Assembly (NCBI GenBank): GCA_016873805.1
Contig: VGVZ01000025.1
Coordinates: 1-46,815 of the forward strand
Length of the DNA stretch: 46,815 nucleotides
Source of the DNA: Ignavibacteria bacterium
GTDB taxonomy: Bacteria > Bacteroidota > Ignavibacteria > UBA10030
Reading direction: 5' to 3'
Shown: positions 18,072-40,186 of the stretch, piece after piece
Position numbering within the stretch: the first letter of the stretch is position 1
Layout: each line of letters starts with the position of its first letter
Notes under the pieces: generated by a model
Databases searched by the model: none
What the model was told of the DNA's origin: nothing
The model's input: the letters and a program-made list of their open reading frames with translations, nothing else
Translations under genes and position numbers: made by a program

Positions 18072-18407
18072 ATGCAGACGCGTGATGATGTCGGCTATCA
18101 GCCGACAACGGAATCGGATTTCGAGCGGAAGTCGGATTTCATCCGTGCCAATTTCGCAAAGAAAGTCGGGACACTTGATCGGACGATGAGGTTCGTGAGG
18201 GATCTTCTGGCGCTCTTCGCCTATATGACGGACGGTAGAGTTCACTGGGGAAAGAAGGCGATCGTCATCGGCGCGCTCCTCTATTTCATCATCCCGATCG
18301 ACTCGGTACCCGACATCATACCGGTCGTAGGATTCCTCGACGACATGGGAGTCGCGGCCGCCGCGGTCAAGTTTCTGGCTGGGGAGTTGAAGGAGTACTA
18401 CGGCTAG
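18072..18407 (+). CDS. DUF1232 (YkvA-like) membrane protein
   Basis: Small protein of 111 residues with a DUF1232 domain. The N-terminal half is soluble and charged. The conserved core 'GKKAIVIGALLYFIIPIDSVPD' continues into 'IIPVVGFLDDMGVAAAAVKFLAGEL', with the family's diagnostic IDxVPDxIPVxGFLDD pattern, about residues 60-103. Function in the family is unknown. A weak Shine-Dalgarno (AAGGAGGG) lies 9 bp before the ATG. It starts 41 bp after the PmbA-like gene and may be co-transcribed with it. The 51-bp repeat array begins 14 bp after its stop. Confidence 0.92.
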   Translation: MQTRDDVGYQPTTESDFERKSDFIRANFAKKVGTLDRTMRFVRDLLALFAYMTDGRVHWGKKAIVIGALLYFIIPIDSVPDIIPVVGFLDDMGVAAAAVKFLAGELKEYYG

Positions 18408-18420
18408 CCAGCGGGAAGGG

Positions 18421-18577
18421 GGGATCTACGAGTCGTCACGGTATGGACCGTGACGATCAGCCGGGGAGCGGGGGATCTACGAGTCGTCACGGTATGGACC
18501 GTGACGATCAGCCGGGAATGGGGGGATCTACGCGTCGTCACGGTATGGACCGTGACGATCAGCCGGGAATGGAGGGA
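18421..18577. repeat. Left array of 51-bp REP-like repeats (3 units)
   Basis: Three direct units with an exact 51-bp period. Each holds a hairpin with a 10-bp stem, TCGTCACGGT and ACCGTGACGA, around an ATGG loop, at 18433-18456, 18484-18507 and 18535-18558. Spacers are nearly identical (TCAGCCGGGAATGGAGGG type), with the first two units slightly diverged. Because 51 is a multiple of three, the array reads through in all frames without being a gene. Confidence 0.95.
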
Positions 18578-18595
18578 GATCGAGGTGAAATCTCA

Positions 18596-18631
18596 CCCTG
18601 CTGGTCATGGACCAATCCGTAGCCAGCAGGG
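18596..18631. repeat. Inverted repeat with a degenerate REP core in the RAYT leader
   Basis: CCCTGCTGG (18596-18604) and CCAGCAGGG (18623-18631) can pair. Between and overlapping them is TGGTCATGGACCA, which resembles the GGTATGGACC centre of the flanking repeats. It covers an alternative upstream ATG of the transposase and lies about 20 bp before the preferred start, so it could affect translation. Confidence 0.5.
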
Positions 18632-18651
18632 AGGCACTCCAGGGGAATCAA

Positions 18652-19200
18652 ATGAGTCGACGTGGAAGACTTCGATTCAAATCTGCTCAAACCTTCTTTG
18701 TGACCACAACGGTCGTGAATTTCGCTGCCGTCTTCAGAGAAGATCGGTACTGCGAAATCCTTGTTCGCAACATCAAGCACTATCAGCAGCGATATCGATT
18801 CAGAATTCTGGCGTATGTCATTATGCCTTCCCATTTTCATTGGGTCGTCCATACAGATCCGAAGATTGGGACGATTTCTGACATCATGAGGGATATCAAG
18901 AAGTACAGCGCGTGGGATATCATGAGCGAGTTGGAATCGGCGGGCCAATCGAACTTGATTCGCATGTTCGAGGCGGAGGCGGGCGACATCACTGATCAAA
19001 GACGCAAATTCTGGATGCGTCGATTCGACGATCGGATCATCAGGAGTACCCGTATGCTTCGAACGGTGATTGAGTACATTCATCGCAATCCTGTCAAGGC
19101 TGGACTCGTGGATGGAGTTACGGACTACAAGTACTCGAGCGCGCGTAACTATCTTCTGAATGATCATTCTATGCTTGAAGTAATCACAGATTGGATCTGA
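18652..19200 (+). CDS. REP-associated tyrosine transposase (RAYT), Y1_Tnp family
   Basis: Single-copy IS200/IS605-like Y1 transposase domesticated in the RAYT group, thought to nick and move REP palindromes through single-stranded intermediates. The HUH motif is 'PSHFHWVVH', and the nucleophilic Tyr is predicted in 'VIEYIHRNPVKAGLV', a hallmark of RAYTs. The typical ending 'YKYSSARNYL' follows. The ATG at 18652 gives 182 residues and has AGGGG 6 bp upstream; an in-frame ATG at 18607 would add 15 residues of poor similarity. It is flanked on both sides by arrays of the same 51-bp repeat, the classic genetic context of such enzymes. No terminal inverted repeats of a complete insertion sequence are seen. 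Confidence 0.93.
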   Translation: MSRRGRLRFKSAQTFFVTTTVVNFAAVFREDRYCEILVRNIKHYQQRYRFRILAYVIMPSHFHWVVHTDPKIGTISDIMRDIKKYSAWDIMSELESAGQSNLIRMFEAEAGDITDQRRKFWMRRFDDRIIRSTRMLRTVIEYIHRNPVKAGLVDGVTDYKYSSARNYLLNDHSMLEVITDWI

Positions 19201-19218
19201 TCGAACAGATCGACTCGG

Positions 19219-19402
19219 TTACGCGTCGTCACGGTATGGACCGTGACGATCAGCCGGGAATGGAGGGATCTACGAGTCGTCACGGTATGGACCGTGACGA
19301 TCAGCCGGGAATGGAGGGATCTACGCGTCGTCACGGTATGGACCGTGACGATCAGCCGGGAATGGAGGGATCTACGAGTCGTCACGGTATGGACCGTGAC
19401 GA
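19219..19402. repeat. Right array of 51-bp REP-like repeats (4 hairpins)
   Basis: Four hairpins identical to those of the left array, at 19226-19249, 19277-19300, 19328-19351 and 19379-19402, each exactly 51 bp apart and in the same orientation. The first lacks the usual upstream GGAGGGATC part and the last stops right after its hairpin. The base before GTCG alternates C, A, C, A between units. Confidence 0.95.
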
Positions 19403-19424
19403 AGGGGCGAAGCTGGGGATACAT

Positions 19425-19775
19425 CTATCGCTCCTGTGCCTCGATCTGGCGGCGACGAAGTTCACGTATGGCGGCCTCGGTGCTGTCGAAGAGGGGTTTG
19501 GCCTTCCGCGGCGATTGAGAAAGCTTCAAAAACTCCCCTTCAAACTCTCTCCACTCGAATCCAAGGCGTGCCAGCACGGAATCAACGCTCCGGGCGTAGA
19601 TGAGTGAATCATCCATTCCGTTTGTGCGATGGCGCTCGTTCAGAACAAGAACTTCGGCGTATGCCTTGGCAACCCTCTGTTCCTGCTGTGTGAGAGGAAC
19701 TGACTGCTGGTCTGAACACGATGAGGACGCGAACAGAACCAATATGATGAAGGGTATTGACTGTCGGAATTTCAT
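19425..19775 (-). CDS. Small putative lipoprotein, unknown function
   Basis: A 116-residue protein starting MKFRQSIPFIILVLFASSSC, a clear lipoprotein signal with lipobox ASSSC. The frame is open further upstream but the lipoprotein start is more convincing. The mature part is charged and probably helical ('TQQEQRVAKAYAEVLVLNERHR', 'AAIRELRRRQIEAQER'). The pattern resembles short DUF4296-like lipoproteins of Bacteroidota, an inference only. It is divergent from uvrB, and its 3' end lies 22 bp from the last unit of the right repeat array. Confidence 0.7.
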   Translation of the reverse strand: MKFRQSIPFIILVLFASSSCSDQQSVPLTQQEQRVAKAYAEVLVLNERHRTNGMDDSLIYARSVDSVLARLGFEWREFEGEFLKLSQSPRKAKPLFDSTEAAIRELRRRQIEAQER

Positions 19776-19828
19776 AGGCAAATCCAAAATACAGAACATC
19801 GATAGGGGATGCAACTCGCGCAGGCCGG

Positions 19829-19859
19829 TTGATAAATGTCGGGGACGCGAGTATATTGA
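19829..19859 (+). promoter_or_regulatory. Putative uvrB promoter
   Basis: TTGATA (19829-19834), 17-bp spacer, TATATTGA (19852-19859), about 58 bp before the uvrB start. It fits both a sigma-70 and a Bacteroidota-like reading. Confidence 0.55.
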
Positions 19860-19916
19860 GTCGAACCACGGGGGAACTCGCATAGGACAAACTGGAGCCG
19901 GTCAGACAAATCATCC

Positions 19917-39778: not shown

Positions 39779-40082
39779 GGACGGGAGAGGACTCCCGTCC
39801 TACCGGAATTGTTTTCAATGACGTGTCGGCGAAGTGCGGATAGATCCGGGTACGTAATCCGCGTTCATCCGCTTCTTCTCTACCTATCCGCGGCTATTGC
39901 TCTTGGTTTACATTCGGACGGGAGAGGACTCCCGTCCCACCGGAATTGTTTTCAACGACGTGTCGGCGAAGTGCGGATAGATCCGGGTACGTAATCCGCG
40001 TTCATCCGCTTCTTCTGTGCCTATCCGCGGCTATTGCTCGTGGTTCACATTCGGACGGGAGAGGACTCCGTACTACCGGAGT
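39779..40082. repeat. 137-bp tandem repeat (2 full copies and a partial third)
   Basis: Copies begin at 39779, 39916 and 40053, an exact 137-bp period. Each of the first two opens with the hairpin GACGGGAG-AGGA-CTCCCGTC (39780-39799, 39917-39936), and carries AATCCGCGTTCATCCGC (39856-39872, 39993-40009). The third copy is degraded within its hairpin. The copies differ at only a few bases. Confidence 0.95.
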
Positions 40083-40186
40083 TGTTCAGGAACCTCCCGA
40101 GGGCTTCCATCGATTCTTCCCTGAATCATTCGGAAGGTTGCGCAGAGTTTGGAACAATCTTCGGTAGGACGCTTCGCGGAAGGGAT

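Follow-up and report, generated by a model that had tools for sequence, protein, structure and literature searches.

A RAYT transposase gene between two blocks of a tandem hairpin array in an Ignavibacteria bacterium, with direct local duplications around related genes

Background

In the available portions of the description by Nunvar et al. (2010, PMC2817692), a RAYT gene lies between two inverted REPs, some genomes have REPs gathered around the gene, a third of the RAYT genes examined adjoin modular BIMEs, the 3' ends of RAYT genes are captured in BIMEs, and insertion sequences use REPs as targets. The model given there has the RAYT cut two REPs of the same direction and circularise the piece, which is copied as a rolling circle and reinserted. 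In Pseudomonas fluorescens SBW25, according to the accessible part of Bertels and Rainey (2011, PMC3116915), a REPIN cluster lies beside each of three RAYTs, and tandem repeats consist of near-identical REPIN units with their flanks. The tetranucleotide GTAG matters to the enzymes of E. coli and Stenotrophomonas, as stated in the portion of PMC8266576 consulted. The origin of REP arrays has been debated since the 2010 description of RAYTs, with no settled answer in the literature examined.

The window analysed here is the whole stretch of 46,815 nucleotides of contig VGVZ01000025.1, in which an earlier note, made from the sequence alone, had pointed out a RAYT gene lodged inside an array of seven hairpins. 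The array locus is a very simple substrate, with one hairpin, one spacer, one direction and one enzyme.

Anatomy of the array locus

The array occupies the space between a DUF1232 gene and a convergent open reading frame with no Pfam match, and the features of the locus are as follows.

18072..18407, + strand: DUF1232 gene, upstream (PF06803)
18412..18577, + strand: left array of three hairpins (18433-18456, 18484-18507, 18535-18558) with 27-nt spacers, 51-bp unit (sequence and TRF)
18596..18631, + strand: left-end (LE) type hairpin, loop CCAA (fold; place and type in relatives)
18652..19200, + strand: intact RAYT gene (TnpAREP-type Y1 transposase; NF047646, PF01797, 4er8)
19220..19402, + strand: right array of four hairpins (19226-19249, 19277-19300, 19328-19351, 19379-19402), 51-bp unit (sequence and TRF)
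19425..19883, - strand: convergent 152-aa open reading frame, downstream (no Pfam match)

As the earlier note had described, the seven hairpins (TCGTCACGGT-ATGG-ACCGTGACGA, 24 nt each, with a 10-bp stem and loop ATGG) stand head to tail in a single orientation, three to the left of the gene and four to the right, and are spaced exactly 51 bp apart within each block (a 24-nt hairpin and a 27-nt spacer); TRF counts 3.3 units at 18412-18577 and 3.6 at 19220-19402. Folded as DNA with their flanks, two of the seven (one of them on both strands) gave -12.1 to -12.2 kcal/mol (z -4.5 to -5.0, none of 200 shuffles equal), and the other five share the same 24 letters. The stem pattern occurs at seven places in the 3.2-Mb genome, and its reversed control at none. 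The hairpin has no variable column among 24 (seven copies), compared with 5 of 27 in the spacer (five full spacers; Fisher p = 0.052), which faintly suggests the recent amplification that the earlier note had put forward. The idea of amplification or copying is itself not new, because publications already describe REP modules in tandem next to RAYTs, as well as a rolling-circle model.

The triplets GCG and GAG alternate before the hairpin in the right block, and by eye the 3' flank of the DUF1232 gene is similar to the first array spacer. The assembly consists of 60 contigs, and units of 51 bp can be miscounted from short reads, so that copy number or phase might be an artefact of assembly; against this, the spacer variants differ from unit to unit and the outer ends of the two blocks are unlike, and we consider an artefact highly improbable.

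The left block ends in ...GGAGGGA (18577) and the right block restarts with TACGCG (19220), TC alone being missing between them, which bears out the 2-bp gap first noted. When the fourth hairpin is counted as the right end of an inserted element (18578-19270), the split is exact and without loss; the sequence fits both counts equally. Taken alone, this near-rejoining is weak evidence, because a phase within 2 of 51 bp has by our arithmetic a chance of about 1 in 10. The sequence is compatible with three readings, among them insertion of the gene into a pre-existing array, as the word 'lodged' had implied. A match between the DUF1232 gene and the right end of the insert (18283-18307 compared with 19195-19219, 76%), possibly a relic of that gene, was rejected as short enough for chance.

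On sequence similarity the gene is a RAYT, as had been recognised: read in its 197-aa form, it scores 122.7 bits against NCBIfam NF047646 (cut-off 80) and 35.8 bits against PF01797. The start adopted here is the ATG at 18652 (182 aa), by our choice; the longest open reading frame starts at 18607. The sole solved relative found by sequence is the TnpAREP chain 4er8 (E=1e-7, 182-aa form), called 'TnpArep' by its depositors, which we take to be the E. coli protein. Residues H61-F-H63 and Y142 align with HMH (the HuH motif) and Tyr115 of 4er8, the numbers being counted by hand. Y115F is a named catalytic mutant of TnpAREP in the part of PMC8266576 available.

Between the left array and the gene stands a hairpin of inverted type that the earlier note did not mention (18596-18631; 10 + 5 bp, -12.8 kcal/mol, z -3.9, 1 of 200 shuffles equal). 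This LE copy is degenerate, and was recognised by its fold, place and core letters rather than by an exact match. The first hairpin of the right array occupies the place of the right-end (RE) hairpin of relatives, and the RAYT gene is therefore flanked by two inverted palindromes, LE at 18596-18631 and RE at 19226-19249. The locus is thus a REPtron (LE hairpin - RAYT - RE hairpin) in which the RE and its 27-nt spacer have been multiplied one way. By comparison with relatives all seven array hairpins are of right-end type, hence the order (RE-s)x3 - LE - RAYT - (RE-s)x3 - RE, where s is the spacer. The array hairpin, of a kind on which such enzymes act, is likely to be the partner of this RAYT.

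Several known classes do not describe the array. GTAG, the mark of GTAG-type REPs, is absent from the 5' foot of the array hairpins on either strand, and its complement CTAC lies 5' of six of the seven; CGTC is paired within the stem, not an unpaired tag as in CGTC-type REPs; all seven hairpins have the same direction, not the alternating or inverted pairs of BIMEs and REPINs; and the full stem is found in seven copies at a single locus, not dispersed as in a REP family. A CRISPR, which the regular hairpin array might suggest, was rejected on account of the near-identical spacers and the RAYT gene inside.

End hairpins of related RAYT genes

Close relatives of the RAYT are found mostly in records of Ignavibacteria, Cloacimonadota and Bacteroidetes. 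The plan LE-RAYT-RE is present among them, and their left and right hairpins are mostly the same palindrome in opposite orientation. A script picked the hairpin closest to the gene on either side in 22 relatives (20 left, 22 right). Loops CCAT or CCAC were found in 10 of the 20 left picks (on the gene strand) and 15 of the 22 right picks (on the other strand), and GG at most 5 nt from the 5' foot in 11 left and 12 right picks, as opposed to 0 and 3 on the other side; these counts are approximate, because several left picks are RE-type copies and not the true left end. GTAG was found within 10 nt 5' of none of the 42 hairpins. In several relatives (e.g. L049, L071, L025) an RE-type hairpin stands upstream of LE, the same order as at the array locus. 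At one locus (L070, about 474-717 after the start of the RAYT match) a 123-bp stretch that takes in the RAYT 3' end and the right-end hairpin is duplicated in tandem almost exactly (2.0 copies, 98% match).

Occurrence of the hairpin elsewhere

A hairpin widespread in genomes lacking the transposase had been named as grounds for abandoning the first interpretation. With up to one mismatch, the array hairpin was found in one of 98 genomes of the order, at the array locus only, and a dispersed REP family was accordingly rejected. The core GTCACGG-N6-CCGTGAC, with up to one mismatch, occurs at 14 places in the host genome (7 at the array locus, 2 each on contigs C20 and C1, and 1 each on C3, C8 and C27) and its reversed control at none; the matches on C8 and C27 may be due to chance. 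The three further loci with related hairpins (C1, C20, C3) include two of direct repeats with other spacers. One is a head-to-tail array of 5-7 units, mostly 72/73 bp apart (C1:14500-17700; L108 1297-1790), each unit of which has a hairpin like that of the array locus (loop CCAT, + strand) and a second hairpin of GCGAAGC type; the other (C20) has two units of a 100-bp direct repeat at a spacing of 170 bp. By eye, the spacers of both look unrelated to those of the array locus. No RAYT or RAYT remnant was detected in the 2.9-3.5 kb examined at each of the three loci. Proximity to a RAYT is thus not needed for such repeats, since those on C1 and C20 have none in the 3.2-3.5 kb examined; the hairpins on C1 and C20 are assigned to the array-locus RAYT by similarity alone, in a host genome (3.2 Mb, 60 contigs) with 11 RAYT profile matches (E <= 0.001).

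These repeats bear on a rival explanation, by which slippage during replication, together with unequal recombination of short direct repeats, would have built the array, hairpins stalling replication and the RAYT being a passive neighbour. Its case consists of the repeats of same-type hairpins without an adjoining RAYT on C1 and C20, the GCG/GAG alternation of the right block, as a two-unit duplication would give, and another hairpin-bearing tandem repeat on the contig of the array locus, on which no second RAYT was found by protein search. That repeat (39779-40086, by TRF) has 2.3 copies of a 137-bp unit with the hairpin GGACGGGAG-AGGA-CTCCCGTCC, the stem of which, when up to one mismatch is allowed, is found five times in the genome. 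Slippage alone gives no account of the unit being in phase across the 642-bp insert (a weak objection, at about 1 in 10 by chance), nor of the gathering of duplications at RAYT genes reported below, and we judge it somewhat unlikely.

In a 400-kb sample of the host genome, TRF found no tandem repeat with at least three copies and a period of at least 20, and five repeats with a period of at least 20, all of about two copies, the best unit stems being 7 and 5 bp. Searches for a home on mobile elements gave no blastn match of 18400-19420 among 50,697 phage records, and distant RAYTs in 9 of 72,556 plasmid records, all below 60% identity; both homes were rejected.

Arrays around other RAYT genes

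A census was drawn from a pool of 180 RAYT matches in 163 loci, of which 136 rows were kept (distinct, E <= 1e-10 to the profile built in this analysis, at least 300 bp on both sides; 131 after merging of duplicates). The sample is not random, many loci being best matches or chosen by hand. Both flanks of the gene hold an array of roughly three units or more at the array locus, at L083 (identical to L043; 53-bp units, 4.4 and 6.5 copies) and, loosely, at L155 (2.6 and 2.8 copies). With two clear cases and one looser one, an array that is uniform, runs in one direction and flanks the gene on both sides is rare, as had been supposed. Four loci have an array mainly on one side (L066, L149, L160, L166). 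The closest relatives of the RAYT (51-63% identity) lack such an array within 1.5 kb upstream and downstream, the maximum among them being a 2.7-copy 27-bp repeat upstream at L066.

At L083 (890-2377) a distant RAYT (224 aa) stands in a 53-bp array with two alternating hairpins, about four to five units to the left and six to the right; here too one unit is interrupted by the gene, with a loss by eye of about 3 bases. Since this RAYT is distant from that of the array locus (28.8% identity over 139 residues) and the hairpins differ, the arrangement of a RAYT in an array probably arose more than once, to judge from the sequences.

The gene neighbourhood in related genomes

Relatives of the DUF1232 gene are present in 9 of 32 genomes, the host genome included. 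The order AIRS-DUF1232 is kept at three loci (L205-L207) in two other genera of the family, and neither a RAYT match nor an array was found in 1.5 kb downstream; at one of them (in one other genus) a relative of the convergent reading frame follows DUF1232 with no RAYT or array between. The array and RAYT were either gained in the lineage of the host or lost at these three loci.

The position of the array between convergent reading frames, together with identical hairpins and variable spacers (p = 0.052), would suit an array kept for a job of its own as terminator, mRNA stabiliser, or gyrase or regulator sites; its absence from the same neighbourhood at the three loci examined speaks against this, and such a role seems very unlikely.

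The same loci bear on the clean insertion, in the style of IS200/IS605, of a 693-bp element (18578-19270: LE - RAYT - RE + tail) between units 3 and 5 of an existing array. The chemistry of IS200/IS605 predicts insertion without loss or duplication, and with the fourth hairpin as the RE of the element the two parts of the array fit together at exactly 51 bp and show neither; the element tail GGAATGGAGGGA is identical to the sequence on the left of the target, an unrelated unit at L083 is divided in a comparable way (by eye, about 3 bp are lost), and insertion sequences that target REPs are known, a further paper reportedly likewise concerning insertion sequences with REP targets. However, no genome was found with the array but without the gene, L205-L207 have neither in the 1.5 kb downstream, and the closest relatives (51-63% identity) lack such an array, although many have local duplications. 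Since these closest relatives show none, the insertion may have preceded the array. Clean insertion into an older array is, in our estimate, unlikely.

Local duplications around RAYT genes

The 700 bp upstream of each gene were aligned directly to the 700 bp downstream. Of 35 loci listed in a clade set, 3 were dropped for too little flank; 19 of the remaining 32 scored at least 60, compared with 1 of 64 control reading frames in the same loci. Among the merged census loci 52 of 131 did so (79 scored below 60), compared with 1 of 259 reading frames in the 400-kb sample of the host genome; here the test is uneven, the upstream flank being taken from the start of the profile match for census loci and from the start of the reading frame for controls. 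With a threshold of 40 the counts are 27 of 32 clade loci (5 scoring below) compared with 2 of 64 controls, and 72 of 136 census rows compared with 2 of 259; the counts at 60 are preferred, because those at 40 are probably fed in part by the palindromes themselves. Both clade controls that reach 40 are at L065, whose repeats stand away from its RAYT. Thus, direct local duplication on both sides is common around RAYT genes, and breaks in the assembly of metagenome-assembled genomes probably bias the counts downward.

The 52 duplications have a median length of 83 bp and a maximum of 332 bp, and a hairpin lies inside 34 of them and none inside 18. Among 57 loci compared with one another, 25 scored at least 60, and 24 of these exceed their own best cross-locus score; the duplicated stretch is locus-specific. 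The exception is L057 (221, compared with 229 with L056), which fails because it shares its gene neighbourhood with L056. For several loci with low scores of their own, a comparison with another locus scores higher (e.g. L024, 29 compared with 124).

At three loci (L059, L067, L075) host DNA is present as direct duplications that contain no end hairpin and lie 6-17 nt beyond the end hairpins: 6 nt separate the upstream copy from the left hairpin at each locus, and 17, 7 and 6 nt, respectively, separate the right hairpin from the downstream copy. These duplications resemble very long target duplications, which are unexpected for chemistry of the IS200/IS605 type. Elsewhere in the host genome (C1:46500-51500; L077 1795-3276) a second RAYT of the array-locus type is bracketed by a 330/332-bp direct duplication, one copy of which holds the 3' end of an adjacent, different RAYT-like gene.

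Possible origin of the array

The reading that we prefer, while placing it somewhat short of an even chance, is that the locus is a REPtron whose RE hairpin, together with short local DNA, was copied head to tail by RAYT action. By this account the RAYT would nick single-stranded DNA at neighbouring hairpins of the same direction and join the ends; the unit of hairpin and spacer would be copied from the product, either a small circle or a 3'-OH primer, and the copy would then be put back beside a hairpin, as in the BIME model of Nunvar et al. (2010). Repeated rounds on a 51-bp unit would yield the array, and rounds on longer units the flanking duplications seen in relatives. One process on the model of Nunvar et al. 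could thus fit both. The account draws on the inverted end hairpins and the upstream RE-type hairpins of relatives, the excess of direct duplications at RAYTs, the same-core hairpins repeated with different spacers on C1 and C20, the absence of tandem repeats of at least three copies from the 400-kb sample, and the comparable position of the L083 gene in its 53-bp array. Evidence on the other side is that the C1 and C20 repeats have no neighbouring RAYT in the DNA examined, that their hairpins are assigned by similarity in a genome with 11 RAYT profile matches, that GTAG is absent 5' of the 42 hairpins of relatives, and that 79 of the 131 census loci score below 60 and 5 of the 32 clade loci below 40.

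A more general proposal, which we regard as fairly unlikely, is that RAYTs of this lineage copy hairpin-bounded local DNA in place: each event would leave a direct duplication of tens to hundreds of host bases beside the end hairpins, a short unit would through repetition become a satellite array, and the 51-bp array would be a frozen product. The locus points to frequent local copying of DNA beside RAYT genes, and the excess of local duplications at RAYTs in the phylum is a signature that lends itself to counting and to a test against slippage.

Comparison with known systems

Among the open-access papers that the literature searches listed, no report was found of RAYT arrays in Ignavibacteria or of long flanking duplications at RAYTs. 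The array locus is like the REPtron in the available portions of Nunvar et al. (PMC2817692), with a RAYT between inverted hairpins and hairpins gathered near the gene. The REPs described there alternate in direction in BIMEs, usually number more than 100 copies per genome and belong to gammaproteobacteria, whereas the hairpins of the array locus have one direction, are nearly confined to one locus and lack GTAG, in a host near Ignavibacteria. The REPINs of SBW25 likewise form tandem near-identical units with flanks next to RAYTs; their unit, as given in the accessible part of PMC3116915, is a pair of REPs forming a hairpin, whereas that of the array locus is a single hairpin with a spacer, repeated to the left and to the right of the gene in almost the same phase.

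The HuH motif and catalytic tyrosine of the RAYT align with those of E. coli TnpAREP, which in the portion of PMC8266576 consulted needs GTAG and a bulged stem, whereas the array hairpins have no GTAG and a perfect 10-bp stem. The CGTC-tagged REPs of Di Nocera et al. (2013, PMC3733652) are, like the array hairpin, short palindromes that include CGTC, but as far as the available text goes their CGTC is unpaired and no transposase is linked to them, whereas at the array locus CGTC lies in the stem and a RAYT is present. The array locus is thus a clean and unusually tidy case of the known partnership of hairpins and RAYTs, of which tandem modules were already published in 2010-2011.
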